NCBI RefSeq assembly: GCF_964355755.1
Contig: NC_092675.1
Span: forward strand, 9,127,312 to 9,191,311
Length of the DNA stretch: 64,000 bases
Reading direction: 5' to 3'
Origin: Antedon mediterranea
Lineage: Eukaryota > Echinodermata > Crinoidea > Comatulida > Antedonidae
Shown here piece after piece: positions 29,453-56,104 of this stretch. The notes under the pieces were generated by a model. That model saw nothing but the letters and a program-made list of their open reading frames with translations. It had not been told where the DNA came from and did not search any database. Position 1 is the stretch's first letter; every line of letters begins with the position of its first letter. The position numbers and the translations under genes are program-made.

Positions 29453-29831
29453 TTTTTTAAATAAACCATCATCAGGTTAGAGAAATAGAATTGACGTTGT
29501 GTAGACCTAGGCCTACCGACAAGCAAAAATGATAAAAAGCCATAAAAAAAAACAATCTCAATATGTCTTAAACAGATGATATCCAAAACACAAATCGTCT
29601 TTTCTCGGGAGACACATCTTGTGTCACACCGCACGCGACCGTCAAAATAATATCGCACGATATTCTCTCGTCGTATGCAAATTAGATTAAGTTATTTGCA
29701 CGTTTAACCCTATATCTTTATTATTTTGTGGAAATGTGCATAGTTTATTTGGCCTACGTTGAAGTTCCGGTGGTCGTTGAAATAACCACTTGCTTTCGGT
29801 ATAGGAGAAGAAGGGATTTGGGAAAACATAA
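29453..29831 (-). promoter_or_regulatory. Putative upstream region of the FERM gene
   Basis: This is the 379 bp between the FERM start codon and the MULE end. It contains CpG-bearing words (CACACCGCACGCGACCG reading 29628-29644) and an octamer-like ATGCAAAT at 29675. The transcription start is unknown, so the transposon could sit in the promoter, a 5' UTR or a 5' intron. Confidence 0.3.
29822..29831. repeat. Target-site duplication of the large MULE, left copy
   Basis: GAAAACATAA directly precedes the terminal GGTAAGCGTTATATGGGCAC. The identical 10 bases follow the other end at 43056-43065. Confidence 0.9.
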
Positions 29832-30175
29832 GGTAAGCGTTATATGGGCACCAGTCGTGCAGGTTATGAATATTAATGAGGAGGTACTATTTGAATATTC
29901 ATTTGTCAAAACCCAGCAGACCAAGACGATTCTCAGCCTGCAGCTTCTCGATTCCGTAGGCTTACACAGTACAGTTACTAATAAATTCTAGACTATGGGA
30001 TAGTTAACTATTATGTAACTATAATTAGCATAATGATGGTTTAGGGTTTAGTAATTTTTATTGATGACATTACGAAATATTGAATCCATAATTTACAATG
30101 GCGTGTATTTATGTAAAACAAATATAAATGACCCACCAATTGTTTTCACATTCAGAACTGCAGATATAGGACACA

Positions 30176-30352
30176 CAGGGAATAATTTCGCCAGTGTAGC
30201 ATAGCAAAAAGCTATACAAAACAACCTTTTTGCTACACGTATTTCTACAATTGTGTAGCAAAAAATACAATACAAAACTATGTTTCTTGACTAAAAAATC
30301 AGTTTGATTAGCAATTTTGCTAAACAAAATTTTCAAATGAAATTTTTCCCTG
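30176..30352. mobile_element. 177-bp hAT-like MITE inside the left MULE arm
   Basis: The termini are CAGGGAA and TTCCCTG, flanked by ACACA on both sides (30171-30175 and 30353-30357). The right MULE arm at about 42705-42722 shows the uninterrupted site with a single ACACA (reverse-complemented), which proves the insertion and its 5-bp duplication. Confidence 0.85.
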
Positions 30353-30418
30353 ACACATAATTACTTCGTACAAGAATGGTGCCCAAAACTATATTATGAG
30401 ATATATGTACACATTATT

Positions 30419-31105
30419 AAATGCACGGCTGGTGCCCATCTGCAGCACTGGTATAATATTAACTATTTAACATCAGAATCAGATAGATATAAAAATGCAC
30501 GGCTGGTGCCCATTGCAGCACTGGTGCCCATATAAACTCTTTAACATTAGATAGATATAAACATGCACGGCCGGTGCCCATCTGCAGCAATGGTGCCCAT
30601 TTTAACTCTTTAACATTGGATAGATATAAAAATGCACGACTGGTGCCCACCTGCAGCACTGGTGCCCGTATTAACTCTTTAACATTAGATAGATATAAAC
30701 ATGCACGGCTGGTGCCCATCTGCAGCAATGGTGCCCATTTTAACTCTTTAACATTGGATAGATATAAAAATGCACGACTGGTGCCCACCTGCAGCACTGG
30801 TGCCCGTATTAACTCTTTAACATTAGATAGATATAAACATGCACGGCTGGTGCCCATCTGCAGCACTGGTGCCCGTATTAACTCTTTAGCATTAGATAGA
30901 TATAAACATGCACGGATGGTGCCCATCTGCAGCACTGGTGCCCGTATATAACTCTTTAACATTATAGATATGAACATGCACGGATGGTGCCCATCTGCAG
31001 CACTGGTGCCCGTATTAACTCTTTAACATTAGATAGATATAAACATGCACAGCTGGTGCCCATCTGCAGCAATGGTGCCCATTTTAACTCTTTAACATTA
31101 GACTC
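30419..31105. repeat. Left subterminal array of 69-bp units
   Basis: There are about ten units of TGCACGGCTGGTGCCCATCT, GCAGCACTGGTGCCC and AACTCTTTAACATTAGATAG. Two subtypes alternate (GCAGCACTGGTGCCCGTATT and GCAGCAATGGTGCCCATTTT). Open frames that cross the array on both strands are repeat artefacts. Confidence 0.95.
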
Positions 31106-31581
31106 TTTTTTTTTTAACTTTTAAACAATTGATAGATATACAAATGCATGTACACAGTATACTAGACTCATTCAATTTAATTAATTAAATTCTTTTAATT
31201 GAGACGTAATGTAAGTCCATATTTATAGAAAACAAAACAAGAAAGTACAAAATAAATGAAAGTTATAATAAAGCCTGTAAAACAAAAGGACTAGTAACAT
31301 ATTTCTTTCTCAAATTACATTTTAGAAATCGGAGAAACAACATTTGCAAATACACATATATATGCATATATTTATTAATATGTAGTTATGCAGGGTGGAG
31401 ATGGGTAAGGTGCCCGGCCTAAAATTCATTCACCCAGTTTGATTTCATTTGAAGGCCTTCCACCCAGCTGAATTTCAGCCTAGCACAGTTTAAGTACTTT
31501 TAGGCATATGTAAAATTGAGGTTCCACTGTACTGTATTTGTATATCATTAGTATTAATTTGATCAATAAGTAACTTGATAC
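31106..31581. other. MULE interior 3' of the transposase gene
   Basis: This is non-coding and includes the 3' UTR and terminator region of the MULE gene. Nothing else is recognised. Confidence 0.4.
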
Positions 31582-31863
31582 TTATTCATATTGGGCTGTA
31601 CATATTGGACAAACGTAGCCACCTCGTGGTCTTGATTTTACATTAACACATTTAAAGTGACACCATCGGCCACATACATCGCACGCAACCCAATCTGCTG
31701 GCAACTTTGGCTTCATACAACCAACAATATCACACAGTCTCCGCTGTGATTTAGGCTTCAGGGAGGATTGCAAAAATTTTGCTAGAACATATTTCCTCAT
31801 GGCAAGTGCATGAGCCTGGCCCAGACTGGTTGGTAATATGTTCCGACTTAAAGCAAGAGCATT
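31582..31863 (-). CDS. MULE gene exon 19: C-terminal PHD finger and stop
   Basis: The PHD finger uses Cys1206, 1211, 1223 and 1226, His1231, and Cys1234, 1247 and 1250 (C4HC3), with the aromatic WCHFKC core. Its zinc spacing is standard except Cx4C in the first pair. The frame ends in TAA at 31584-31582. A C-terminal PHD suggests binding of histone tails, possibly guiding target choice. Confidence 0.88.
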   Translation of the reverse strand, partial: NALALSRNILPTSLGQAHALAMRKYVLAKFLQSSLKPKSQRRLCDIVGCMKPKLPADWVACDVCGRWCHFKCVNVKSRPRGGYVCPICTAQYE

Positions 31864-34800
31864 CTGAAAATAAATAAAAAATTCAGTACATTTCAAAATA
31901 TTTTATAATATTTATATTACATTTAATATATACATTAGAGCACATGAGTAGTGACTATTATTTCTTACCAACATGACAAATGCTCCGCAGGAACTTCCAT
32001 CACTTTGCTTTCCTGATAGTAATTGTGTGTCATGTATCCATTGATCTTTTAACTCACCAGTTGCATCACTACGACATCTCATGTATTCTCTGTAGTGAAC
32101 AAACCAAAAAGGTATGTACAGTGTTAAACTCAAACATTGAACTCTATGTGAATTTCTGTTTTTCTAAACAAATTAAAACACCAACCTGAACTTATTAATA
32201 TAGATTGAGTTGTCTCTTCCAGGCAAGGAGTCTAACAATGAAACCCTCATAGTGGGAACATAAGCAGCCAGGAGTATCCAATGATTTTGGTTAATGTTAA
32301 TTGGAAGAAAAATCCAAGAAAACTTGACCAACTTAACCTAATGTTTAAAAAATAACAATTTTAAATAATGATAAAAACCAAAATTGATTCAAGTGTGAAG
32401 GTTAGCTAACACTAGAGCATATTGAAGCTTATGTGGGTACTAAAAACAGTTAATAATTATTTACTAGGGACAATACTGTTTATGAAAATGCACTAATAAT
32501 AAACTAACCTTCTTGAACAACCAGGGGGCTAAACTATCCACACTCCATTGAACAGCTACATAAGATGGCATTATGAAAATGTGACCATGGTCTTCTGTGT
32601 TTGTTTCTCTTTTTAGCAAATGCAAGTAAGCATTTATTACCTAATTTTGGATAAACAAAATGATAAAAATATTGAATGGCTGATATTATTTTTCAAAAAT
32701 TTTCTTTTTAAAGCACTTATTTATGTGTATTTATTTGAGGCTATGAAATTAAATATCATAACAGAGAATCAGTACTATTGTTGCATAGTAACTGATAAAA
32801 TGAGTTTATAGTTAACAGTATAGTAATCAATTCTTATTAAAGTAAATTTTTCTTAGAAATGATCCTTTTTGTCATATGTGTAGAAAAATTAAAACAAGTT
32901 TTGTTTAGGTGTGTTAAAGGACTTACTTTGTCATTTAACCAATTTGGATGAACTAAACACTTGAAGTCATCATGCTCTATTACATCTCCTCCAACATGAT
33001 ACCTCACTTTCTTGCTTTTAGGTACATCAACATTTTTTTCGGATGTTAGCTCAACTAAAAGTGTGTCTGTATTAAATGAAACAATGTTTCTATAACAGTC
33101 ATAATAAGAACATTCAGTAACCGTTAACAGTAAAAATTAAAAATTATTAATTATTATAACATTATATTAATAACATTATATCATCAACACTTTTTTTAAT
33201 CTTACTCAACTGGGAGTATGTCTGTAATACTGTGAAATAAACATAACATTTTAACAACAACAACAAACAAATCAATATCATAAAAACTTGCCTTTCTTGT
33301 TATTGGAAAGAAATGTTTGGCTAGCAAAAGAAATCGCTTTCTCTTTCTTCTGTGGTGATATTTTAGGCTTGTATGAATCAACTTCAGGTGCTGTAAATTG
33401 TAAATGTTATATATGTAAAATATCTCTTCGTGAATTAATATACTAAAAAGATTAAAAAAGGATGAAGGTAATTTCTCACTACATACAGATCTTTTTTAAT
33501 GTACTTTAAAATTAACAAAATAAAAACATGCCTCTCTTATTATCAATCTATGCCTGAAAGTTTGATCACAATTAAAATATTAATATATAAATAAATCACT
33601 ACTATTTCTTTTTCCAAAACTCTCCTACTTTTGTAGGAAAGGCCTCTATACCATTATGATTTACACAAAAAATATAGCAGAATTAATATTTAATTTAACT
33701 TGTGTATACTTTATATTTTTTTTCCGTATTTATTATTATACAATGTGAAAAGTCATAGTCATAGTCATATAGTCATATATACTTTATTGTCCATTTAAAA
33801 AAACAGAAATGTGATTTGAAAACTGGCAAAATACAAAGAAAGGTATTTGACAATAATATTATTATTTATTGGGTGCAAGGCTTTACCTGAATGCACAGGT
33901 GATTGCATTTCCGTATCTTGTTCAGAAGGTGAACAGGGAGCTGGAAATCATAAAAATAAAATGTGACATACACATAATAAGAGTATCATCTTGATTTTGA
34001 ATACATTTCCATACAATTTGAGTACTATATAATCAAATATTACAAAGTAATACAGATGGCAGATGAAAATACTGTATAACAGGGCTCAAATTTTACTTTT
34101 GTATCAACTACCAAACATTTGCTAGTTGTAAAAATCTAACTAGCAAATTGAGCAACCCAACTAGCAAGTAAGATAAGGAAAATTAATCTATCTCTGGTCC
34201 CTCTACACATTCATAAAATGGTTTGCTTCAAATATACATACATACATACATTCAACATAAAATAGCTGACTAAATATAGAAATCTTTTTTTGTAATAAAT
34301 ACTTAATAGTAAGTTATATAATGTGATTTATGATAAGTACCTTTAAAATATCCATCAATCTTTGTGTTTACTAAATTCACTTTTCTGAAACCTCTTCTGG
34401 TCATTTTCTTTTTTTTCTTAATGACAGGTAATTCTCGATGTTGAGGACTCTTTCTCTTTCGCTCAAACAGTTTTGGCTCTGCATCAGGAATTAAGCCTTC
34501 TTCATTGCTTAAATGCTGCCTGATATACTCTACGGTGTTTAGTATTTTCTTTTCCATTTTCCTTAAGATTTCTTCTTCTTTGCACAGATAAGTCATGTCT
34601 CGTAGGAGAAGTAGTTTCTCTCTACAAGAAGCAGCTACTTGTTTTGCAAAAGAAGGTCTTAGAGGCAAGCTGCTATCATCAGGGGGTAAATGACACTCTT
34701 CTATTTCATGTTCTAGAATTACCTTTTCAGGTTCTCCTAGAAAGGTTCCAACTAACTTATCAAGCGTGTGAAGTGGAGATTCACGAAGACTTTCGGGAAG

Positions 34801-37800
34801 ACTTTCCCAAGTCACATCTTCTATGTAAGTGAGAATTGAAAAAATATGTTTACATGGCATTCTCAACTTCAACCAATCTATACACTCACACACTGACATT
34901 GCACTCGGCGACATGTCTACTAAGTAACTTGATTGTCCTTGCAGACTTTGACTTTTCACCTGTAAATAAAAGAATATTAAACACAATTTAAAATTGTTTC
35001 TTTTTCTATATTTTCCCATAAATATTAATATTTTTACAATTTTAAATACTTATGTAGTTTTTGAAAGCAAGTTCTATCCAAACTTTTTAGCAACTGACAT
35101 CTATTCCATTTTTTTATAAAATAATCATATATAGAATATCATAAATTATTTTTATTTAATAAATCAATAAATTAAATACAAAATAGATAGTTGTGGGTTT
35201 ATTAATCATTTAAATGCAAAGTTGCAATCAAATAGAAGTAATCTGCAGATCATATAAAAACCACTCTTTTACCTTAAATTTATCCTTATCTATTCTTGTG
35301 ATGTCCTTTGATAATATTTCTTGAGATGACTCGAAACGTGATAAGCAATGGCTAAGAAAAGCAGGAGGCCTGTTTTGAAGATAGTGCGGAACCTCTTGTT
35401 TGTATGTCCGACCATAAGTATCATCAGCCTTTACATTCGCTGTGATGTATCTGATAACAAAAAATTATGTATGAACTGTACCATTAACTTTTAAATAATA
35501 TTTATGCTAACCAATAAAAAATGTAATTAACCTTACGGTAGATGAACATTTCTGTACAATAAACTATTCTTAGAGCCGCAAGAAATGAACCCAAATCCCT
35601 TTACTTTAATTGAGGGGTTTTAGTACTGTAAAAAACAAAACACAATTAACACAACGGTACCAAAATTTATTAAAATATTTTAAAATATGACTTTATACCG
35701 TACTTCATTTTTCTGCTAGGCAGGTATTCATTGTGAAGAGCTGATATCATGCCAGAAATTGAAAATGAGGCTCGGTCTACTAAAAACTTGTGTTTAAATA
35801 CTCGATTTTGCCGCTCAAGACCATTGTTGGTATGTGCCTGTAGACCTTGGTCTTTTCGGTAGGACCATGCCCAGAGCTAAAAGTAAAAATTTAAGTAAAT
35901 TATCATCTATAGAGTTTATGCAATATATTTTCTTTAATAAATTAGAAAATTACTCACCTCGCAATGTGGCAGCCATTTTTTGGATAACCATTGCTGAAGT
36001 CGGCAGTTTTTTTTCCAAACCTCCGACATTTTTAATGTGTTTACAGCTTTTTTGTACGCAAGAACCGTTGTAGCATGAGCACAGCGTCGTAAGTGAGCAA
36101 GAATCTGGTCCTTGGACTTTGTAACGCCATTATCAGTCTTGCTCACCCAACGGATCCAGGCTTGCTCCCGATGAAAGTCGCATATGTAAGTTTTTGTTTC
36201 TAGTGATAAAGGAAAGTGTAAATAAATCTCTGAAAACAATGAAAGTTCTAGCATACAATTGTAGAAAAATAATTAAAAAAAAATCAATATAACAAACAAT
36301 AAATTACCAGGAAACAGTTCCTTGATAGCTGAGAGCTCCCTTTCACAGAAGTCTGTTAAGAAATTGGTGGGGTTCCAGCTAAGATTTGCCTGTTGCATAA
36401 ATTGTTTGATTGTAGACAGACCCTCAAGAATGGCTGCTTTGGTTTCCATCTGAACAACAAATTCACCAACCACACTGTAACCAACATTTGTTTTTACTGC
36501 CAAAAAGAACAATGGCAAGGCATATCGTGTGGTCTTATAGGTAGCATCAAGAAAACACAAGTTTGTTCCATATCTAAAGTAACATAAATATAATAAATAA
36601 TAAAAGAACAGTGAAACCATAAAAAATATGAGGGTGATGTAAAACATAATAATTGCCTTTATTGTCATCTTGGTTGTCAAAATATATCTGTCCCAAAGCT
36701 TCAATCACAAGAAAACAAATAACCTACCGGTTTAAAAGATGCCTCTGAAATTCTGTTTGATGAGCGAAAAAGAAAGCAGATGAACTTTGCGATGATTCAG
36801 CAGGAATCAATTCATCATCATCTTCATTAACATAAAACTCCTTTGTGGGCTCAGCAGAAGCAAGCCTTAAAAAGTAGTTATCTAATGGATGTTGCTTCTG
36901 CCACTCCTCCATTTGTTGTTTCAGGTTCTCCTGATCTAGCTTTGAATACCTAAAAAAGGTTAGAACATTGGTACATAACTTAAAAGTAACAACATTTTTC
37001 GGTTTTATAAATGAATAAGTTTATAGGAAACAAAAAGGTACTGTACAGTAATAGGTAGCAAACCAAAATGTGCACCCTGGTAGACACAGCAGAGATTTTC
37101 AATAATTCCCCATAAATGTTTTCTACTGTATATATATATTTTGTAAGAGTAGAGCAACAATATAATTATGGTTTTATAAGCTGTACATATAAAAAACAAA
37201 CCTTAATGCCATTAAAGAAGTGTAAATATGGTTTCTCAATGTCTGGTCCTGCGGGTAGTAGGCTGTATTTGTCACAGCAGGACGAGTTTCTGCATCCGGA
37301 AACAATACTGTTTCCACATATATTTTTAAATGCCTCCTCATCTCCTCTGTACCGTTTACACCATGGCTGACCAATTCATGAATTTTGTCCTTTATTCCTT
37401 TATTTATTGGATTTAAAAATCCAGCAAGCTAAAAGAGTTTTAATAGTTTAGGAATCTCATATAAAAACCATTATAGTTTAAGTAAACATATTATAAACTT
37501 TAATTGTTTTAAAATAATTTACTTTTCACAATTTCACAATAAATGATCCATTCATCAAAATTAAGGACTTCAGAACATCACTGCTAATCCTGGTGTTGTA
37601 GTACGCCAAATGAGAACATAATGTTTTGTACATCTGCTGTGCCTTATATGAACTTACAAAAATTGAAAGTTTAAGTACTTAAACAAAATTATTTTGTTGT
37701 TGTTTTTTGTTAAACTGAGAATCAGCTTTTAAAAATAAATGCATTGCTATTAACAAATCTATTTACCGTGCCAATTTTGTGAAAACTGTTATGTTCCTGA

Positions 37801-40800
37801 TCTGATGGTAGAGATACATAGATTCTTCTCTCTGCCTTTAGGTCTGCACCACTTTTAACAGCCTTCCTAAGCGCTTGACTTTTCTCGTCACAAACACACC
37901 TGTTCTGTGAAACTGACTATAAGAAGTAACAACAAAGAAATCAATCACTTATAAATAATCATAACATTATGATTTTTATTTATGTTTACCTAACACAGTG
38001 ATTAAAAAACTTAAAAATAACAATAATAATAATAAAAATATTAATAATACAAATAATAATAACAACATAGACATAAAATAATTATTATTTTTGTTTTAAA
38101 GAAATTAATAATTACTAGATGGTACGCTCGCTTCGCTCGCGTACCATCTAGGTCGTGCCCACAGATGGTTCTCGAATACATAGTAATTTCAGCATAAAAA
38201 AACGGTGATTTATGTAGCCAACTAAAATTAGTACCCTGGCAATTACTTGAGTAAACAAAACCAATTTGTGTTTTGTAATGTAACATTAGGGTTGAAGGAT
38301 GGTAAGAGGGTGGGTGCAAAGAGGAACCATTTTTTAAATATATTCTTTATCCGTAACGACATATTTGTTTTTATGTTTTATAAATAATAAACCACTAAAC
38401 ATTTGCGATACTTTATTGAAACTGTCACTGTCATAGTCGATTGAAATAGTTAAGTACATGTAATTGTAACAATACACCACTATGACTTTTATATTCTTTG
38501 TAATTATTAATAATACTATTAAGAAGCAACTGTCAGTATTAAAGTTTAATTATGTGTTTAAACAGTACCACCACACTCGTAAAAAGAAATTGTGCTTTAA
38601 ATGGGACACAAATGGTTTATGTATTTAATGTAAAAGGTTTTTAATTTATCCCCGAAGGGCACGTAAATTTACCGTAAATTTGCCTACTTGTGTTATACCA
38701 AATGTGGGGAGAGATTGGAATGTTCCATTCATCGCCAAGCAATCCTTTTGTATAAACGCATATTTTAAATCTATCAAAATAGTATTTTTTAAAGAAAATC
38801 GGCCTGTCTTCAACATTATGATGCTGTACTCGAGCTGTTCAACCGGTTTTCAGCTATTAAAAACAATTATCCTAGGAGGAGATAGGAAAATGCAAAGCAT
38901 CCTCGTATTATTGTGTGCGGGTATTTTTTAAGACGGATATCCATTAGACAGTGTATTCCACGATCGGAAAACACCCCTATTTGGGGCAAATCGTTGAACC
39001 TAAATTCGTTTTAATTGTCAATAACTAATTATCTAACTCAATTTAATTAGTAAACAGGGTTACATCAGGTGGTTAAAATCAGTAACGAAAGTACGAACCA
39101 ACTTTATATACCATCGACTAAAAATTCTAGAAATAACGCACAATTTACCGAATTTTGCCCTTACATAAATTTATATATAGATTTTAAAATAGAAAATTTG
39201 AAGTTTAATTTAATTAATGCAAATAAAAAAATACAAAGTAATTGCTTTTTAAAATGCATTTATGTTTACCGTAAATAAATAGAAAATAAAATAAATAGAC
39301 AATGCAGCTATTACAAACATTAAAATCTCAATGTCAGATTTAAAGTAAGGTACTGTAAACAAAATTGTAAAACTGTGAATTGTTAATAGTATTTTAATTT
39401 AAATTTACCTTAAATTCTGGAAATCTAATAATTTCCTTTAATTTTAGTTTTGCTGGGCAGCCTTTCTTTTTGGAACATTGCATCCTCCTTCTTCTCTTCT
39501 TTCCTGTTGGATGGTCACTCTATTATCAAGATTAACAAAATACAGATTGATAATTATATATCGATATTATAAAAATGAAATACTTCATTAGGGGTCAGAA
39601 TTAATTACTTACAGCATATGTATACACTATATTTAAAAATCATAAAATGTACTGTATGGATACCTTGAGTTCATTTTCACGGTTATCTGCTTCTTTTTCT
39701 TGAGCACATCTGTGCTTATTTCGTCCATACATACACCCTAACGTATATGATGCTGTTATCATGAAAGGAACTCCATCAAAATCTATACCATCTTTCCTGC
39801 CTGAAAATCTTACCAAGTGTGATGCAATACCTTTGGAATGTAATATAGAAAAGGCATGTTAAGTATTAGTATTTTGTATTCCTAAATTACAAAGGGTTGT
39901 CAATTCAGTGAAATGTTTGTCTAAATATTCGTACTGTACCTTCCTAAGTTTGCCTGACAAGATAGCCAACCCTAGGCCTATCTATAGATAATTTTTTTTA
40001 AACCATATAAACATAAAAAAAAGTTGTACATCTATCCGATTTTGCACACAATAAGAAAGTTAGTTAATTATTAGGTTTTGGTATCTTAGGGAGGATGGGG
40101 TGGGGTGTGACAGCAAACAAAACACACTGATTTTAATATAACAGTAGGCCTCTAGGCCTAGGCCTATATTATATACTTTTTTTCCCCAATCATTAGGGTG
40201 CTAGGGAGAGAACAATACAACTTTTCTTGATATGTGACATTTTTTGAATTGAAAGTTTCATATAAAATTGAAAATTCACTAGGCCTAGATCTAGTAGTAC
40301 TAGGTAGTAGGTCTATCCTAGTCTGGTCCCCTTTTTACAGTAGGCCTAGGATAGTAGATCATGCAAGGTATTGTCGAAATAAATCAAAATGCTCATTCAA
40401 GGTATTGTCGTAATAAATCAAAATGCTCATTCATATTGTGTCGAAATATATCCCAACATGATGCCATAAATGTATATTTATGGTTTACTTTCTTAAACAA
40501 CGAATAAAGGGGCTAGGCTAACCTGGTGCAGATGAGGTATTGATAAGACCAATTTCGCCAATTTCAACGTTGTCCTCCTGCTCTTCTACGCCGTTGGTAG
40601 TACAATAGGCATTGGCCTGAGGCGGAAGCGGAGAAAACTTTATTTTTCCGAAGTCTCCCTTCTTGTTTCCAACGAAATGTAATGACTTCGCATTTTCGAA
40701 TACGTTTCGTAGCTCTTCACAATCTGATAAACCACAAACCCATCCTTTTAAATAGTTTTCAGACGGAGAATTTAGAAATTTTGCCCACAATGGCAAACAA

Positions 40801-40856
40801 TTTGTGTCAACTGACATGTTTTCAGACTCACACAATACACACGCCACACATTTCAT
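31582..40856 (-). CDS. MULE transposase fused to SWIM, Ulp1-type protease and PHD finger, 1,255 aa
   Basis: Nineteen exons: 40523-40856, 39664-39830, 39409-39519, 37767-37916, 37538-37642, 37202-37428, 36728-36949, 36308-36573, 35958-36199, 35699-35876, 35273-35439, 34341-34959, 33887-33940, 33292-33390, 32927-33066, 32509-32640, 32186-32337, 31969-32089, 31582-31863. They sum to 3,768 nt, with every phase continuous and no internal stop. Order of domains: Cys-rich N-terminus (1-111), FAR1/GCM-like zinc-binding region (about 112-204), MULE DDE transposase (about 430-640), SWIM zinc finger (747-761), basic nuclear-targeting-like segment, C48 (Ulp1/SENP) protease (about 1015-1162), PHD finger (1206-1250). 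Expected roles are DNA cleavage and strand transfer in the nucleus, removal of SUMO or a related modifier, and chromatin reading. The exon 5 donor (GTGAAA) is the least certain junction. Confidence 0.85.
31969..33066 (-). CDS. MULE gene exons 15-18: Ulp1/SENP-like C48 cysteine protease
   Basis: The exons are 32927-33066, 32509-32640, 32186-32337 and 31969-32089. CLVHPNWLNDKVINAYLHLL is the substrate-groove entry motif. INQNHWILL holds catalytic His1090, VSLLDSLPG holds Asp1107, and GKQSDGSSCGAFVML holds the oxyanion Gln1150 and nucleophile Cys1156. The order H-D-Q-C and spacing match the family, and no catalytic residue is missing. Confidence 0.88.
34341..34959 (-). CDS. MULE gene exon 12: SWIM zinc finger and basic linker
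   Basis: VCECIDWLKLRMPCKHIF matches C-x-C-x9-C-x-H (C747, C749, C759, H761), the SWIM signature that usually follows the MULE DDE domain. The remainder is charged and ends with lysine-rich KKKKKMTRRGFRK, a possible nuclear-localisation signal. Confidence 0.88.
35699..36573 (-). CDS. MULE gene exons 8-10: DDE transposase core
   Basis: Exon 8 (36308-36573) holds the first catalytic Asp in LCFLDATYKTTRYALP (D448) and the second in FLTDFCERELSAIKE (D513). Exon 9 (35958-36199) holds the C/H insert motif ICDFHREQAW (C534, H537). Exon 10 (35699-35876) holds HTNNGLERQNRVFKHKF with the likely third acid E629. All expected catalytic residues are present, so the enzyme may be functional. Confidence 0.85.
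38115..39181 (-). mobile_element. Nonautonomous Helitron, copy 1 (1,067 bp)
   Basis: Read on the minus strand, it begins TCTATATATAAATTTA and ends with a hairpin (AGATGGTACGC stem, 11 bp) and CTAG. It sits between A and T with no target duplication, the Helitron rule. It has no coding capacity. It lies in intron 3 of the MULE gene, so it came in after that element formed. Confidence 0.82.
39409..40856 (-). CDS. MULE gene exons 1-3: N-terminal Cys-rich and FAR1/GCM-like region
   Basis: Exon 1 starts at ATG 40856-40854 and encodes CVACVLCESEN and other paired cysteines. Exons 2-3 encode FMITASYTLGCMYGRNKHRC and MQCSKKKGCPAKLKLKEI. This C...C...H/C layout is typical of the DNA-binding module in front of many MULE transposases. 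Joining is by a phase-1 then a phase-0 intron. Confidence 0.75.
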
Positions 40857-41484
40857 AACTTCCCGCGAATCGCTGTATCAGGTTCCAATAATGAATATTC
40901 AACACGTCTGCTGTAAAGCCTAGGTTCCATAAAATCGCTACACGCGACAGAGCGTAGCGATTCTATTGAAACGCTAGAATTTATCGGGGATCTAGTACGC
41001 GAGAGCGCTAAATATTCTTTGGTACGCGTATTATTATACGATTCATCGCCGACAAAATCGGCAAAGTAAAGTTGAACATGTTGAACTTTGCTGATTTAAC
41101 TGCGATTGCGTCGGGGACATCTGCGCGTGTAGCGATTTTAATGGAAACGCGGTAGCGATGGTGTGACGTGTAGCGATTTTATGGAAACCGGCTTAAATGC
41201 GCGCCAGTGCTGCGCAGTGTTGGCAACCGTCACGTCACGCGCATTTCATGCGCAGTGGAATTTTTTAGTGAGCTATCTGCTCACGTTCGGCGCACACTTG
41301 AGAGGAAAATGGCACGAGTGCCAATAAATATTAAACACGATAGATATTTTCCTCAGCGGCACGCATGGCTGATTCCTCATGAATTCCCCAGCGCACACTG
41401 TGAGGCTAGCCAAGTGTTACTCGTGCCTGTTGGCTCAGCCGGAAGCTTTAGTGTGCGCCGGGCTCAATATAATAAGGGCAGTTA
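40857..41484 (-). promoter_or_regulatory. MULE gene upstream region with a 267-bp fold-back MITE
   Basis: From 40923 to 41189 the ends are GGTTCCATAAAATCGCTACA and its inverse (CGTGTAGCGATTTTATGGAAACC). Internal repeats of TGTAGCGATTTTA are present, and the region is CpG-rich compared with its surroundings. The element ends 67 bp before the start codon, so it probably supplies or disturbs the promoter. Its target duplication is unclear. Confidence 0.55.
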
Positions 41485-42650
41485 ATACGGGCACCAGTAC
41501 AGCCATGCATGTTTATATCTATCTAATGTTAAAGAGTTAATACGGGCACCAGTGCTGCAGATGGGCACCAGCCGTGCATGTTTATATCTGTTATATCTGT
41601 TATGCGCGATTTGAACGATTTGCGCAATTTGAAATTGCGCAAAAAATTTCTTGCGCACTTTGAATTGAAACATGTGTTTCAAATTGCGCAAGCAACGTAT
41701 TAAATTGCGCAAGTAATCTGCAAATTGCGCAAGGTTTTTCGACAGATTGTGAAATCATGCACACCCATATTTTTTTAGTAATTTCTAAGAGTGATTCAAA
41801 ATTAAAGATAATATCGCATTTCCTTACCCTCCCGGGAGCCTCCCTCCCGAATTTTTTTTTCCGAATAAAAAAAATCTCGAATTCCCAATGGTTCTATAAA
41901 ATACCATATTCACACATAATATGAGGAGAAGGCATAAATAAATACCAATAGTAATATAATAATTTCAATTGAAATATCAGTACTAATGACGATTAATAAG
42001 ACTAATAACGATTGCATGTTTATATCTATCTAATGTTAAAGAGTTAATACGGGCACCAGTGCTGCAGGTGGGCACCAGTCGTGCATTTTTATATCTATCC
42101 AATGTTAAAGAGTTAAAATGGGCACCATTGCTGCAGATGGGCACCAGCCGTGCATGTTTATATCTATCTAATGTTAAAGAGTTAATACGGGCACCAGTGC
42201 TGCAGGTGGGCACCAGTCGTGCATTTTTATATCTATCCAATGTTAAAGAGTTAAAACGGGCACCATTGCTGCAGATGGGCACCAGCCGTGCATGTTTATA
42301 TCTATCTAATGTTAAAGAGTTAATACGGGCACCAGTGCTGCAGATGGGCACCAGCCGTGCATGGTTATATCTATCCAATGTTAAAGAGTTAAAATGGGCA
42401 CCATTGCTGCAGATGGGCACCAGCCGTGCATGTTTATATCTATCTAATGTTAAAGAGTTAATACGGGCACCAGTGCTGCAGATGGGCACCAGCCGTGCAT
42501 GGTTATATCTATCTAATGTTAAAAAGTTAATACGGGCACCAGTGCTGCAGGTGGGCACCAGCCGTGCATTTTTATATCTATCTGATTCTGATGTTAAATA
42601 GTTAATATTATACCAGTGCTGCAGATGGGCACCAGCCGTGCATTTAATAA
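41485..42650. repeat. Right subterminal array of 69-bp units, interrupted
   Basis: This is the inverse of the left array. About two units lie at 41485-41592, then a 420-bp insert, then about nine units to 42650. The insert (41600-42010) opens with six repeats of AAATTGCGCAA (41615-41740). Confidence 0.93.
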
Positions 42651-43058
42651 TGTGTACATATATCTCATAATATAGTTTATATGGGCACCATTCTTGTACG
42701 AAGTAACATATTTATGTGTCCTATATCTGCAGTTCTGAATGTGAAAACAATTGGTGGGTCATTTATATTTGTTTTACATAAATACACGCCATCGTAAATT
42801 ATGGATTCAATGTTTCGTAATGTCATCAATAAAAATTACTAGTTAAAACCCTAAACCATCATTATGCTAATTATAGTTACGTAATAGTTAATAACTATCC
42901 CATAGTCTAGAATTTATTAGTAACTGTAAGCCTACGGAATCGAAGCTGCAGGCTGAATCGTCTTGGTCTGCTGGGTTTTGATAAATGAATATTCAAATAG
43001 TACCTCCTCATTAATATTCATAACCTGCACGACTGGTGCCCATATAACGCTTACCGAA

Positions 43059-43067
43059 AACATAAAC
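43059..43067. repeat. Target-site duplication of the second element, left copy
   Basis: AACATAAAC precedes GGTAATCTCTTCTTCC. The identical 9-mer follows the other end at 49767-49775. It overlaps the right target duplication of the large MULE by seven bases (43059-43065). Confidence 0.85.
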
Positions 43068-43369
43068 GGTAATCTCTTCTTCCTCGGTCACATTTGCCTC
43101 ATTTTAATATATGTCACGCGCTAGGCTGAACAACACTCTCAAGAATAATAAACAGTTGATTAGGTCATACTATAAAACTGGGATTTAAGTTATAAGCAAA
43201 AATATCCTCCAGGGTGGATTTAAAATGCAGTTTTAAAACGCAGCCTGTGTTAAAAATTTGGGATTTTTCAGATTCCATTTTGGCCCCCATTATTGGTTCA
43301 AAGAAGGCGAATAATTTTTCAATTCCCACTTCTAGTGAAAATTTTAGTATGGTTTTTTTGGTTCTAGGA

Positions 43370-43630
43370 CACCTACCCCCTAGACAGTTACCCCCCGGAT
43401 GTTTACCACCCGGACAACTACCCCCTTAGGACAACTACCCCCCGGACAACTACCCCCCGGACAACTACCCTCTTAGGACAACTACCCCCTTAGGATAACA
43501 ACCCCCCGGACAACTACCCCCCGGACAACCACCCCCTTAGGACAACCACCCCCTTAGGATAACTACCCCCCGGGTAACTACCCCCCGGGTAACTACCCCC
43601 CGGGTAACTACCCCCGGTCAACTAACCCCC
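43370..43630. repeat. GACAACTACCCCC array (left)
   Basis: About 18 degenerate units of 13-16 bp (CCCCCGGACAACTACCCCC and CCTTAGGACAACTACC). The reverse complement recurs at 45540-45670 and 49065-49395. Confidence 0.93.
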
Positions 43631-43650
43631 GGTCATCATCTGTTTTTTAC

Positions 43651-44910
43651 GGGTGTTTCGAAACTAGAGACCCGAGACCAGAGACCTGACACGAGACCCA
43701 ATACGAAAAGGGTCTCCCTTTTCGTATATTAGGGTCTCCCTTTTCGTATAGTGTGGTCTCTCTTTTCGTATAGTGGGGTCTCCCTTTTCTTAACTTATAG
43801 TGGGTCTCCCTTTTCGTATATTTGGGTCTCCCATTTTGTATATTTGGGTCTCCCTTTTCGTATATTTGGGTCTCCCTTTTCGTATATTTAGGTCTCCCCT
43901 TTCGTATATTAGGGTCTCCATTTTCGTATAGTGGGGTCTCCCTTTTCGTATAGTGGGGTCTCCCTTTTCGTACGTGAGTCTCCCTTTTCGTATATATAGG
44001 CAAAGAATATATATCACAAGAATGAGTATTCCGCGATTTTTGCATGAGAAATTTGTAACAGAGAGCTCCAGAGAGTGATGCCCGCCCTCATAAGGGCGGA
44101 TGTATACATACTAAATAAGACTTGATTTAATAGATATTATACATGTCACATTAAATAGAATTATGATAATATATTTTGCAATTGTAAACTATTTTATAAT
44201 ACATATTTATTAACAAACTAGTGTACATTCACTTTTACAGACAATTATTTACTAACATGCTAAGTTAGTTCACAAAAAAAGCCTAACACAGCAACACCAA
44301 AATCAACGAATCGTTACTCAGCACGGCCTATTCTATACCATTGCCGTGTACTACTCTACGCCCGGTAAATTAAGTATTGTTTTTATGATATAAATTAGTA
44401 TAAAATACATGTTATTAATAGGACAAAATGTTAAATATCATTAACATTTATTTGTTTTACCAGAAACAAGTTAAATATAGGAATATTATTAAACTATCGT
44501 TCGTGAAAACGCGTAAACACCAACACGCCCGGTCACGCTATCGTAGCGCCCGGTTGATAAAGCAAACTGTTTATACGGCAGATTTTACTAAATAAATTGC
44601 ATAAAACGAACAATTAAATATCCAAATAGTATTTAATATGATGTTGGCATGTAGTTGATAACATTTTTTATCATGAAAATACTACCGGTGGTCTAGCCTT
44701 TGATTATTGAAACCGTCACAAAAAGTTGTATACATCCCAGATACATCCACACTTATGGTGGCGCCCTACCACATGGACAATATTACTGTTACAGGGAAAA
44801 TCGCGGATTACTCATTCTTGTGATATATATTCTTTGATATAGGTCTCCCTTTTCGTATTGGGTCTCGGGTCTCTGGTCTCTGGTCTCGGGTCTCTAGTTT
44901 CGAAACACCC
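43651..44910. mobile_element. Nested 1.26-kb TIR element with GGTCTCCCTTTTCGTATA array
   Basis: The termini GGGTGTTTCGAAACTAGAGA and their inverse (44891-44910) are followed by alternating CCCGAGACC and CAGAGACC words. The flanks GTTTTTTAC and GTTTTTAAC match at 8 of 9 bases. The left arm has an array of about fifteen GGTCTCCCTTTTCGTATA units (43715-44000). The inner arms ATATATCACAAGAATGAGTA also pair (44010-44036 against 44800-44830). No coding frame was found, so it is a nonautonomous passenger in the second element. Confidence 0.75.
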
Positions 44911-46340
44911 GTTTTTAACCGATTATTCTGTTTAACAGCACGCTAGACCCTAGATGTGCTAGATTTAAAGTACCGTATTTATTGAAAAAACGGCCTGGGC
45001 TGTTTATTGTTTAGGTGGTTTTTAGGTGGACATTTATTGGAAGAAAGTTGTTTATTCAATGGGAGGGGGTATAATCTAATGGAAATAGACGCCGATTATT
45101 CCATATGATGTTTCATGGGAGTGACATGGTCACCGTTTATTTGAGGGGAATTTATTTAAAGATTGCCGTTTATTCGGTGAGTGAACATTGAGGTCAAATA
45201 TCAAAAGTGATATTATTCTTCAAGTGTACAAAAATACATATATGACAAATTTTAGACAAAAATTAATTCTTTTAAGACCAGTGGTTATCGAAGCATTGTC
45301 CTGACCCAAAAATTATTATTATTATTAGCGAACCCAGTCTTTACAGTAAATACAGGGAGTATAATACGTTCGACTATCCTATGATCATGTGTGACAATCT
45401 TCAGTTTATATACCAGGCTATATTTATGTTCAATCTTTTACTTTTGTTTACAATAATGAATAGTAATTCGTCAAAGTAACGAATTAAAATATAGTTAAAT
45501 ATATAGGTATATTAGTTATTCCTATTATACACTGTTGCAGAGTCAGGTTGTTGAATGGTCTGGGTGGTAGTTGTCCGTCCGGGGGGTAGTTGTTCTAAAG
45601 GGATAGTTGTCTGGGTGGTAGTTGTCCAGGGGTTAGTTGTCCTACGGAGGTAGTTGTCCTAAAAGATTATTTGCCCTCTAGTTAGGGTTAAAAACGTCAT
45701 TTTTGAACCAAACCTGGAAAAAATTATTTACAAAGGATTTTTATCATCAAACTTAACATATAAGTCCCAGGGGTCACCAAAAAAAAGTTCTAGTGATTTT
45801 CTCTATGGGGGAAGGAGTTATGACCTTTTATATAAAGGTCAATCTATTTTTAGTAACGAGTTAGTACTTCGTTAACCACACAGTGTAGATGCTTAATTTT
45901 AGTCTCAAATTGTTCGCAATGTACAATTTCCTATTTGCAATAATGGAATATTTTTCTAAAAAATTACCAGCAATGCTATTTCTGACCTTTGACCTTTCTT
46001 GACCGGAAGTTTCATAGCTACATAAGTATTTGACCTAGAGAGTTGGTTTTGGTCTTAATTTGTTTATAATGTACAACTTTATATTTGCAGTAATGACACA
46101 TTTTTCTATAAAGCAAGTAGAAATACCATTTATTGACCGTTGAACCCAATTAACCAATATTATTCAATTATTATTAATAATATAATTCAAGTATTAACAC
46201 CGCCACCACATGGCTGTACATAGGCTAAACTTTTTGACCAATCAGGAAGCGCCATCTAGCAGGCTACATTTCAAATGTTTGTTAGAAAGAGTGCAGCAAG
46301 AGCATATCAAATGCAATTTTGGTAAGCATAAATAGTATAT
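44911..46340. other. Second element, non-coding arm
   Basis: It contains a GTAGTTGTCC array in the opposite sense to that at 43370 (45540-45670). From about 45670 it contains the inverted partner of 48690-49055, so this stretch is part of the element's long inverted arms. Confidence 0.6.
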
Positions 46341-46347
46341 ATAGCAG

Positions 46348-48300
46348 AAACTGGTTCTTATACAACTGAAGACCTATGTGAAATAATGAGAGAGTTATCA
46401 GATGATGGGAGTATTAGTGATTTCTTTTACAGTTCAAAGTATTTGAAAAAACTACTTCTTGAAGAGTTTGGTAATGAGATTTACTTTTCTAGTGAAAAGG
46501 GCAGAAAAGATATTGTATGCTTTAAGAGTACCCAAAATGAAATATTAAGAGATTATTGGAGTTCTACTAGGGAGGACACAGACACTGAAAAGTTAAAAAT
46601 TATCATGACTGCATCCAGGTTGATTTATGATGATATAAAATGTTTAAAGTTAAGTACATCTGTATATCCATCCATTCAGAATATGATAGGTCCAATAGAC
46701 ACAGTTCCAGAATCATTAAATCGATTTTTACATAATATGATTAGATCTGAACATGTTGCTAATAACCTTAGTCAGAACATTGTTAAGGCATGTCGGCCGA
46801 ATACATATGTAAGCGGGCCAATGCTTGGTCTTTCAATTCATGATCATAAGTTTGGTTCTAAGTGGTTAATTAATAGACTGAATAGATTAGGATGTTGTGA
46901 GAGTTATAATGAATTACGTCGTTATAAATATAACTACATCAGTCAAATGAATGATATGAGAATTAGTACTAATGATAATAACAGTAGCAATACTAAGATT
47001 GTTCAGTTTGCTGGCGATAACCTTGATTTGGACATTCGTTCATTGCACGGGAATACATCATTTCATGCAATGGGGTTGATCAAGATGACAAATGATAATA
47101 GTGGAACACCTGCTCATATTATCAACACAACCTATAGAATACACCGCAGACAAATGAAGGATTTAGATACAACCAAAATTTTAAAGGACTGCAAAGCTGT
47201 GGACGGAGTTTCATTATATAGTAACAATAATAGTACGAAACTTCATAAGAGCTGAACGAGAAAACAACTGGGAACTACACATTGAGGCAGTTGGACAAAT
47301 GCTGCCTTATTTTGCAGCGTGTGGACATGCTCACTATGCTAAAGGCAGCCGTATATACATTCAGACTATGTTGCAGCTGAAAAAAGATGATCCTGTCACA
47401 TGGGCGATATTCTGCAATGGGGATCATACCATCAGATATAACGAAAAACAGTGGGCAGGTGTATGGAGTGACATAGCAATTGAACAGACCCTTATGAGAC
47501 ATTCAAAATCACAGGGCGGTTTGTCTATGGGCCGGATGAGGGGTACTTCAACTACAAGCGGAGCAACATACCTGCCTTGGGTACTGACTTTGAATCATTT
47601 TTCTGAGATTCATCACCTACTAGAAGACAAAGGAAACACTCCAAACCTGCCAAACAAAGAATGCTCACAAAGTGCAATGAAAATTGACACATCTACCTTC
47701 GGTCAAGTACTCAATTGGTTCAATGAACGTTCTCCATTTGAAGATCCACAGAATAGTAAAATCATCGTTTCACTGTCGACAGGTTTATCCACTGAATTCG
47801 TCAACGAAGTAAATTGTGACAATGGCTACAATATAGGTCTCACCATACAGAAACAAGTAGATGCTAAACCTCTGAATCACAGAATGTCTACACGAAACAT
47901 TAAACCATTATCATGTCTACAAAAATGTGTGAAAGTTGGAGGAAAGAATGCTTATGTCAACAATACAACCCTATTTACAAGACTTGTCCTCAGTGAACGT
48001 GATAACTTTTCACTACGTGAAACATTAAAATATGAACTGACACCTATACCAACATCCCTGTATGATACCTCTGAATTTTTACGGAAGCCTGACAAGGTGT
48101 TGTAACTGTAAATCTTGAAATGGTAATGAGATGTGTACAACGAATAGATGTAATTGTAGAAAGAGTAAGCTTAAATGCTTTTAAGCATTTAAGCTTACTC
48201 TTATCACTTAAAAGTGCATGTGGGTCATGTATGGGCAAATGTGAAAATGGCTCATGTAATTTTTCATTAAGTGACCATGATTTTTCTGATGAAGACACCT
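46348..48300 (+). pseudogene. Unrecognised transposon gene with CXC-like Cys-rich tail, frameshifted
   Basis: A plus-strand frame (46348-47255, acceptor-like ATATAGCAG before it) holds LSDDGSISDFFYSSKYLK, a DNLDLDIRSLHGNTSFHAMG motif and a long mid-region. Near 47215 a one-base shift leads to the second frame (to 48105) with ENNWELHIEAVGQMLPYF, ACGHAHYAKGSRIY, WAGVWSDIAIEQTLMR and SKSQGGLSMGRM. After a stop, a third frame gives CTTNRCNCRKSKLKC, then a 42-bp palindrome, then ACGSCMGKCENGSC, a split CXC (tesmin/TSO1-like) pattern. I recall related hypothetical proteins from invertebrates but cannot name a function. The position inside a TIR element suggests a transposase or accessory factor. 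It is broken in at least two places. Confidence 0.6.
48161..48202. repeat. Perfect 42-bp palindrome splitting the CXC motif
   Basis: The 20-bp arms AAGAGTAAGCTTAAATGCTT pair around a TT loop. It falls between the two halves of the Cys-rich motif, so it probably arose by local inverted duplication that broke the gene. Confidence 0.93.
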
Positions 48301-49064
48301 AGGCTTTACTGACACAGTAATAATCTGGCTAGTCTAAAAAAAAAAATCATCAGCTTTCGTCTAAGTGACGGTGTATGTTTTAAATAAAGTTGATTATTTG
48401 GTAAAAATAATATCATTGTACGTCTATAATTACATGTAGATTTTAAACTATTACCAATAATAAGGAATCTTTAGTAAGTAAACGACTGGGAGCAATATCC
48501 AAGTTTCGTTGTTTTTACATGATGAATAATCCCCTCCCCCACCCTCAAAAACATTTAAAATGTGATTTTTTTTCTCAAGTTTGGTGCTCTTTTCACATAT
48601 AAGGTTAAAAGTTAATAAAACCATACTTCTTGTCACAATTGTACATAATGCTCCATTATACCAAATAGGAACATACATGTTCTTAACAATTTGAGACCAA
48701 TATGAAGATTATGCGACCAGTAGTTATTGAGATATAATAAGCTGAGGTCAAAGGTCAAAACGTCAGAAATATCATTTCTGGTCACTTTTGGACAAAATGT
48801 TTCATTATGAAGAATAGGAATATGTATCTTCTAAACAATTTAAGACCAAAACCAAGTCTCCATGATTAATGGTTACCAAGATACAAGCATGTCAAGTTGT
48901 AAGCGGCCATTTTGAAAATGGCGCCAAAAAAAAGTTTCCCATGGGCCAAATCCTTAGAACTTTTTTTTGGTGGTATTTTAGATTCATATAAAGGTTTTCC
49001 CATAAAAATCGCTTTGTAAATAATTTTTTCTAGGTTTGGTGCTGATTTTCCCTAACTACTCGGA

Positions 49065-49395
49065 GTATTGTCCAGGTCCAGGAGGTAGTTGTCCTACGGG
49101 GAGTATTGTGTCAGAAGTAGTTGTCCGCGGAGTAATTACCCGGGGGAGTGGGGTAATTGTCCGGGGAGTAATTGTCCGGGGAGGAATTGTTCCTAGGGGG
49201 TAATTGTCCGGGGGGTAGTTGTCCAGGGGGTAGTTGTCCTAAGGGGGTTTTTGTCCTAAGCGGGTAGTTGTCCGGGGGTTATTTGTCCGGGGGGGTAGTT
49301 GTCCTAAAGGGGTAGTTGTCCTAAGGGGGTAGTGGTCCAGGTGGTGGTTGTCCGGGGGGTAGTTTTCCGGGGGGTAAATGTCCAGGGGGTGAATA
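49065..49395. repeat. GGTAGTTGTCC array (right)
   Basis: About 20 degenerate units (GGGGGGTAGTTGTCC, GGGGTAATTGTCC). This is the inverse of the 43370 array. Confidence 0.93.
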
Positions 49396-49993
49396 TCCGG
49401 ATACGAATAATAGTGCTACATCCGTTGTCAGCAGCCCAAAATCAAATAGATGAATATGTGTTCATGTCACTTAATTTGGTAATTGTTCTCAAGAAAGCAC
49501 TTAAATTGAAAAATGAAAAATCCAGTTTATTCATAATAATCATTACATAGTATTTGATACAATAAATAATATCTTGTTTTATCTTTTCCATCCAAGTCAA
49601 ACAATTACTGCCCAATACTGTAGTGCAAGTGAAACTTATGAATATTCAAGAGGTAAAATCCCAGTTTAGTATGACGTAATCAACTGTTTATTGAGAGTGT
49701 TGTTCAGCCTAGCGTGACATTATATTAAAATGAGGCAAATGTGACCGCGAGGAAGAAGAGATTACCAACATAAACAACACTGACAACGCACGTGTACTTT
49801 GTGGTGACGAGTTTACCAGCACCCCACCAATGTGGGTACTTAACATATACTATTACTGTGCAAAGGGGCCTAGGCGAAATCAGAAAATATTTGGTGAGAG
49901 TGAATGTCAACAAGTGAACATAGAAAAGCAGAAAAGGTAGGCCTACCTAGGCTAGCTAGTAAACGTACGTAAGCTGGGCGCTGTTATTTTTAA

Positions 49994-55849: not shown

Positions 55850-56020
55850 AGGTGTCATGTGAAAATAGTTATCCTTAGTTGGGGTAGTTGTCCCAGTAGG
55901 TAATTGTCACAGGAGATAGTTGTCCCAGTGGGTAGTTTTCCTAGGAGATAGCTGTATGGATGTTGTTTTCATAGGGTGGTAGGTGATAATTGTCGGGATG
56001 GTAGTTGTTCAGATACAACA
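55850..56020. repeat. Degenerate GTAGTTGTCC array upstream of POLG
   Basis: Words such as GGTAGTTGTCC, GGAGATAGTTGTCCCAG and GGTGATAATTGTC recur about ten times. They match the subterminal arrays of the second TIR transposon (43-49 kb), so this is probably an old relative. Confidence 0.7.
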
Positions 56021-56104
56021 TCGCTCAAATTACATTCTTGGCCCCTCCTTGTTTTAATGGCTTAATTGCTCAGAATCTGAGCTTTTTCCTCTTTTTTTTG
56101 TCAG

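Follow-up and report, generated by a model that had tools for sequence, protein, structure and literature searches.

Animal Mutator transposases that carry an Ulp1 protease are already known: Mutator elements of Hydra magnipapillata and Branchiostoma floridae, cited from Repbase, encode Ulp1, and a figure legend in the same paper names Ulp1 together with PHD (PMC2836005). Compared by description, these hydra and lancelet MuDR elements share a Mutator transposase with Ulp1 and PHD, as well as animal hosts, with the subject of this report, a Mutator-like element (MULE) of 13,224 bp that occupies positions 29832-43055 of a 64,000-bp stretch of the crinoid Antedon mediterranea (contig NC_092675.1, 9,127,312 to 9,191,311; hereafter "the window"). 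Rehavkus resembles it in a MULE-like DDE core and a minisatellite beside the inverted repeat, and has a PHD finger, for which the crinoid protein scores on either side of the Pfam cut-off; a minisatellite is present also in the aphid Phantom (PMC6446971). The target duplication reported for Rehavkus is 9 bp, as opposed to 10 bp in the crinoid element (and 9 bp in a second crinoid family described below). Kaonashi (KI-MULE) and other plant MULEs also contain a MULE core with Ulp1, but KI-MULE lacks inverted repeats and has its Ulp1 reversed, whereas the crinoid element has long arms and a single spliced frame (PMC2528002). FAR1/FHY3 are the standard example of transcription factors derived from a MULE transposase (PMC10027918, PMC13306707); they belong to a DNA-binding family different from that of our element. 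Ginger1 also possesses Ulp1 and PHD, but around a Gypsy-integrase-like DDE core instead of a MULE core. Finally, the brain/neuronal transcription factor CARF (Calcium-Response Factor, ALS2CR8; PMC2877716) has the same DNA-binding domain as our element (PF15299), and the CARF gene of the crinoid host (L010) also shares a module that follows the SWIM motif in the element; CARF stands alone, while the gene of the element adds DDE, Ulp1, and PHD domains.

In a survey of arthropod MULEs, the 322 types recorded measured 1.4-10.0 kb and their inverted repeats 13-1,193 bp (PMC13359780). The preliminary description of this DNA regarded autonomous animal MULEs with many introns and array-bearing arms over 1 kb as unusual. 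This stands with respect to size, as 13.2 kb exceeds the arthropod range, but not with respect to the parts, as both minisatellite-bearing MULEs and animal MULEs with Ulp1/PHD are known. In open-licence full texts we found no mention of a CARF domain in a MULE, nothing relevant beyond PMC2877716 among the matches listed for CARF/ALS2CR8 combined with transposon terms, and no paper that brings together Ulp1, PHD finger, transposase, and MuDR. CARF does not occur in the main text of PMC2836005, nor do ALS2CR8 or ULP in that of PMC6446971, nor CARF or ALS2CR8 in that of PMC10027918, which surveys animal transcription factors derived from transposons. What the locus offers is an animal MULE that is apparently intact, is delimited to the base, and has a DNA-binding module not described for MULEs in the texts we searched; it is valuable mainly for what it may tell about how CARF arose.

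Structure and coding capacity of the element

We consider it probable (roughly 0.85) that positions 29832-43055 constitute an animal MULE that belongs to a CARF-bearing lineage, is complete in structure, and is potentially autonomous, including the loading of its arrays by the CARF domain and the domestication of L010 that are proposed below. Its features in the window are as follows:

29822-29831: target duplication GAAAACATAA, left copy, directly abutting the left tip
29832-29851 (+) and 43036-43055 (-): tip GGTAAGCGTTATATGGGCAC, exact 20-bp inverted match
29832-31102 (+): left arm, comprising the tip, a unique stretch, and a 69-bp array at 30421-31102
29844-29860 (-): tip copy of the 17-mer GCACGGCTGGTGCCCAT at up to three mismatches, with its mate at 43027-43043 (+)
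31582-40856 (-): transposase gene, 17 coding exons, 1,179 residues, no internal stop, last exon including the stop codon
40523-40856, 39664-39800, 39409-39519, 37767-37916, 37202-37428, 36728-36949 (-): exons 1-6
36308-36573, 35958-36199, 35704-35876, 35273-35450, 34341-34959, 33887-33940 (-): exons 7-12
32927-33066, 32509-32640, 32186-32337, 31969-32089, 31582-31863 (-): exons 13-17
37219-39789 (-): CARF/ALS2CR8 DNA-binding domain (PF15299), residues 116-314, exons 2-5; Pfam E 1e-35, 124.2 bits
35704-36573 (-): MULE DDE core, exons 7-9; PF10551 at residues 401-492, 44.6 bits (cut-off 27.6), E 2e-11
34846-34890 (-): SWIM-type motif C-x-C-x9-C-x-H, residues 704-718
34471-34671 (-): post-SWIM helical module, residues 777-843, also present in the host CARF gene L010
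31786-32944 (-): Ulp1/C48 SUMO-protease domain (PF02902), residues 946-1112; E 9.2e-12
31600-31719 (-): PHD finger, residues 1135-1174
42013-43055 (-): right arm, comprising a 69-bp array at 42013-42643, a unique stretch, and the tip
43056-43065: target duplication GAAAACATAA, right copy, exact over 10 bp, directly abutting the right tip

The exact 20-bp tips and the presence of GAAAACATAA on both sides confirm the earlier delimitation of a complete 13-kb MULE with a perfect 10-bp duplication. At up to three mismatches GGTAAGCGTTATATGGGCAC is found nowhere else in the window, and the same count was reached in none of 100 shuffles. The 10-mer GAAAACATAA by itself is common (0.70 copies expected per window, at least two copies in 16 of 100 shuffles), so the weight of the duplication derives from its position. 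Its length falls within the range of about 8-11 bp typical of MULEs, and the long terminal inverted repeats are likewise as expected for this group: both arms exceed 1 kb and carry 9.8 (left) and 9.1 (right) copies of the 69-bp tandem unit, with a further array fragment near 41489-41590, inward of the right arm. The identity of the element as a MULE is supported by these tips and the duplication together with the PF10551 catalytic domain and the related copies described in the next section.

The preliminary description reported an intact gene of 19 exons. The frame indeed has no stop and the expected catalytic residues are present, but our sequence-based model comprises 17 exons, separated by 16 introns that are all GT-AG; the start codon, exon 12, and the exon 13 acceptor, at least, were chosen on frame alone. 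The encoded domains follow the order CARF - DDE - SWIM - post-SWIM module - Ulp1 - PHD. The N-terminal CARF domain, which was absent from the preliminary description, is in our judgement the most interesting feature of the protein, and as the PF15299 match spans exons 2-5 joined, it also supports the splices of those four exons. In the Pfam scan, the whole protein matches the ZSWIM1-3 RNaseH-like family (E 1.3e-9), and no integrase-core family is listed at E up to 0.5. The Ulp1 domain was aligned with yeast Ulp1 (1euv, E 1.8e-12), and the PHD finger scores 30.3 bits on the segment alone (cut-off 24). From their motifs and from conservation in the second-family gene L006 (see below), we take D403, D468, and E584 to be the catalytic residues of the DDE core, and H1014, D1031, and C1080 those of Ulp1. 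The CARF domain has no PDB relative at E up to 1, and no relatives were confirmed in viral contigs. A classical zinc finger of the WRKY/GCM1 type in the CARF domain was considered but is not supported: the CARF-domain locus L011 shares with this element the first cysteine of the C-x5-C pair, but the host CARF, L006, and the related locus L007 lack it.

Analysis of the arms points to a multiplied 17-bp motif as the candidate transposase-binding site. At up to three mismatches GCACGGCTGGTGCCCAT has 23 copies in the element and none elsewhere in the window, and 42 of the 43 window copies of TGGTGCCC lie inside the element (0.65 expected); in each arm, the array copies of the 17-mer are oriented opposite to the tip copy. 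The CARF domain, perhaps together with the SWIM finger, may recognise the motif of about 17 bp, which starts some 12 bp in from each end of the element; the oppositely oriented repeats of both arrays would then allow many transposase molecules to load per arm. The DDE core would cut at the GG/CC tips and insert the element into a staggered target of 9-10 bp. Possible roles of the other two domains are removal of SUMO from the transposase or from repair factors (Ulp1) and chromatin binding (PHD finger). The 17-mer is unlike YSANAACGAGGC, the consensus published for human CaRF (PMC2877716), and the arrays are unsupported as human-CaRF sites: the window contains one match to YSANAACGAGGC at one mismatch, as against 1.02 expected, and this match sits in the gene, outside the arrays.

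Related copies and a second CARF-bearing family

Search of the assembly (354 Mb, 18 contigs) at up to one mismatch revealed six occurrences of the tip, two here and one at each of four other loci, where three are exact and one has a single mismatch. Other copies are found by their termini; the preliminary description had named the absence of any other copy or empty site, together with strong cross-species conservation, as an argument for a fixed host gene. A 349-bp arm query gave partial matches at three of the four loci (L001-L003), one of which (L003) also keeps the exon-1 region. All four look like one-ended remnants. An internal relative, L005, is decayed: it contains stops and deletions, and it differs from the element at 43 of 770 exon positions and 30 of 920 intron positions. 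These dispersed remnants suggest that the family moved in the past. At the fourth tip locus (L004, 6178-6197; C3:23293677-23293696) a lone tip, with about 28 bp shared and no match longer than the tip region, stands beside unrelated sequence and perhaps belongs to another subfamily.

A second, diverged family has the same domain order as our element. It is represented by the following locus:

C2:37182489-37198073: second-family element (L020+L006+L021); length about 15.6 kb, arms about 2.5-3 kb

Its gene (L006) is about 38-55% identical to that of our element over the core, with Pfam matches to ALS2CR8 (E 5.7e-15), SWIM (above cut-off), C48 (E 3.7e-9), and the RNaseH-like family (E 1.3e-13); PHD and MULE lie near their thresholds (23.0 bits for a cut-off of 24 and 27.5 bits for a cut-off of 27.6, respectively), and the homologue of exon 3 holds a stop. 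The repeat units, about 90 bp long in the arm analysed, hold GTGCCCTGACGG in a palindromic arrangement. The 12 occurrences of the second-family tip include five pairs, which we take as two-ended copies. Three of the five are flanked by exact 9-bp duplications (ACTGAACTC, GCTAGGCTA, and TATTTGCAC), two of which would be 11 bp long if the tips were taken to be shorter; no duplication was found for the two-ended copies on C2 and C8.

L007, L008, and L009 are related too, containing both CARF-type and MULE sequence, and in L008 part of the domain order of our element recurs. MULE transposase domains are widespread in the genome, with at least 36 matches to PF10551 (E up to 0.001), as against at least 14 to PF15299; among the matches listed, 2 of 36 PF10551 matches, those of L006 and of the present element, have a PF15299 match within 10 kb, which suggests that CARF-bearing MULEs are a minority lineage. 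Several PF10551 matches of equal score in open frames of 651 residues suggest young intronless families.

The host CARF gene and the alternative explanations

The CARF gene of the host, L010 (C5:1688500-1696500), matches ALS2CR8 with E 2.4e-18 on joined exons and ends C-terminally in a Q-rich tail. Its main open reading frame (ORF) matches only itself in the genome, and in the 8 kb read there is no match to the MULE core, DDE, SWIM, Ulp1, or PHD parts. The DNA-binding domains of L010 and the element are identical at 60 of 205 aligned residues. Exon B of L010 and exon 3 of the element, as modelled, are both 111 bp long and phase 0/phase 0, with 14 of 37 residues identical. In addition, a profile built from five MULE post-SWIM segments detects L010 with 29.2 bits (E 1.4e-7 when 2,637 sequences were searched). 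For comparison, the best of 2,000 shuffles reached E 0.21 and the best of 177,635 PDB sequences 15.5 bits. The profile also detects L009, a CARF-MULE outside the training set, with 16.7 bits (E 3.6e-4). The module is located after DDE and SWIM in the element and directly after the DNA-binding domain in L010. L010 has two of the element's modules and an exon in common with it, but not the core that lies between these modules in the element, and plausibly represents a domesticated CARF-MULE transposase that has lost its core; one internal loss explains this layout, which makes domestication simpler than insertion of a core.

On the origin of CARF in general our judgement is evenly divided. CARF would be a domesticated MULE transposase in which the DDE/SWIM core disappeared from between the N-terminal DNA-binding domain and the post-SWIM module, both of which were retained, and to which an activation tail was added; CARF-MULEs like this element would be its still-structured transposon relatives. 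CaRF was reported to lack homology to other factors, and no function was known for its second conserved region, mouse residues 292-472 (PMC2877716). If the proposed origin is true, that region would contain the post-SWIM module, a factor whose ancestry was described there as unique would acquire a concrete origin, and the array-borne motif would link element and factor via binding. Two other loci also hold CARF-domain exons, L014 (C2:9851500-9860500), which is closer to the host CARF (E 2.6e-4), and L011 (C7:19683000-19691000), which is closer to the MULE; they may be further genes or MULE remnants, and the idea of a single host CARF gene in the genome was dropped because of them. Exon B of L010, which is shared with the MULE, shows a sub-threshold match to FAR1 (PF03101, E 0.035), a lead that might link CARF to the FAR1-type DNA-binding domains of MULEs.

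The opposite direction of transfer, i.e. a MULE capturing the CARF domain with its introns from a host CARF gene in the manner of Pack-MULEs, we regard as unlikely. Captured gene fragments in MULEs can include introns, and the shared exon boundaries alone fit either direction; the near absence of PF15299 around the PF10551 matches listed, which makes CARF a minority-lineage trait, also agrees with capture. MULEs are known to take up gene fragments (PMC2528002). However, the two modules shared with L010 flank DDE and SWIM in the element, so that capture would require a CARF gene to have received a transposase core in its interior, and CARF-type domains occur with MULE cores at several diverged loci.

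Several results weigh against our interpretation of the locus as a complete, potentially autonomous CARF-bearing MULE and of L010 as its domesticated relative. We found no second intact or two-ended copy of the family in the assembly, and no second tip (up to five substitutions) at the four other tip loci in the 6.5-7.4 kb fetched for each. No empty site was found either: the 45 matches listed for the joined flanks are the two flanks themselves and 43 that cover only the right half, the latter being copies of the neighbouring element TE-B (see below; best 40 of 47 candidates scored). The comparison with L005 shows no excess of exon conservation, i.e. no sign of constraint. Outside the arrays the two arms match at 434 of 444 aligned bases (10 differences) and are interrupted by seven internal gap runs (the alignment script printed eight, of which one is an unequal query end), the largest being a stretch of about 177 bp that the right arm lacks; therefore the element need not be young. 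The SWIM motif of this copy falls below the Pfam cut-off that L006 exceeds, and in the whole-protein scan the PHD finger scores 22.1 bits, below the cut-off of 24. As YSANAACGAGGC is not enriched, binding of the transposase to the arrays stays a proposal. With respect to L010, the post-SWIM similarity was spotted by eye ahead of the test, and at L011 and L014 the 8-9 kb read revealed neither a MULE core nor, at E below 1, a match to the module.

Part of this evidence would suit a host gene, by now fixed and domesticated, on which transposon ends are simply left over, an explanation we find improbable. Only one intact copy was found, and its frame is open despite seven internal gap runs over about 440 aligned bases of the arms, so that selection has probably maintained it. 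The same effect would, however, be expected from selection for transposition in an active lineage, and the perfect tips and duplication, the DDE and Ulp1 residues, the remnants elsewhere, and a second family with duplications all favour a mobile element. The idea that separate neighbouring CARF-like, MULE, and Ulp1 genes were over-joined into one is very improbable: at least three of the boundary choices of the model were made on frame alone, but the same domain order recurs in L006 and partly in L008, the spliced PF15299 match rises to 124 bits over four exons, and all 16 introns are GT-AG.

The neighbouring element and other features of the window

Immediately to the right of the MULE, and outside it, lies another element, TE-B:

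43068-49766: TE-B, with tips GGTAATCTCTTCTTCC and minisatellite-bearing arms
43059-43067 and 49767-49775: 9-bp duplication AACATAAAC of TE-B

The left duplication of TE-B overlaps the last seven bases of the right duplication of the MULE, i.e. both insertions occurred within the same dozen bases. The right copy of AACATAAAC preserves part of the original target sequence and so provides an independent trace of the target, and the overlap leaves the delimitation of the MULE unweakened. Both orders of insertion fit the overlapping duplications; the more diverged arms of TE-B, identical at 106 of 113 positions versus 434 of 444 for the MULE, lean towards TE-B having inserted first. Of four other TE-B loci fetched, L018 and L019 are two-tipped, with duplications AAGAAGCAT and GTACAATGC, and L016 and L017 have one tip each. 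Judged by its tips, duplication, and arrays alone, TE-B is probably MULE-like; its ORFs at 46332-47252 and 47185-48102 have no Pfam match.

Elsewhere in the window we found retrotransposon reverse-transcriptase ORFs (PF00078) at 10064-11362 (+) and 21360-23009 (-), and a TNP-like RNase H N-terminal domain (PF21787) at 14955-15347 (-), probably a DNA-transposon fragment. About 6 kb to the right of TE-B, at 56005-56700 (+), there is a mitochondrial DNA polymerase exonuclease domain (PF18136), with which an apparent POLG gene begins.

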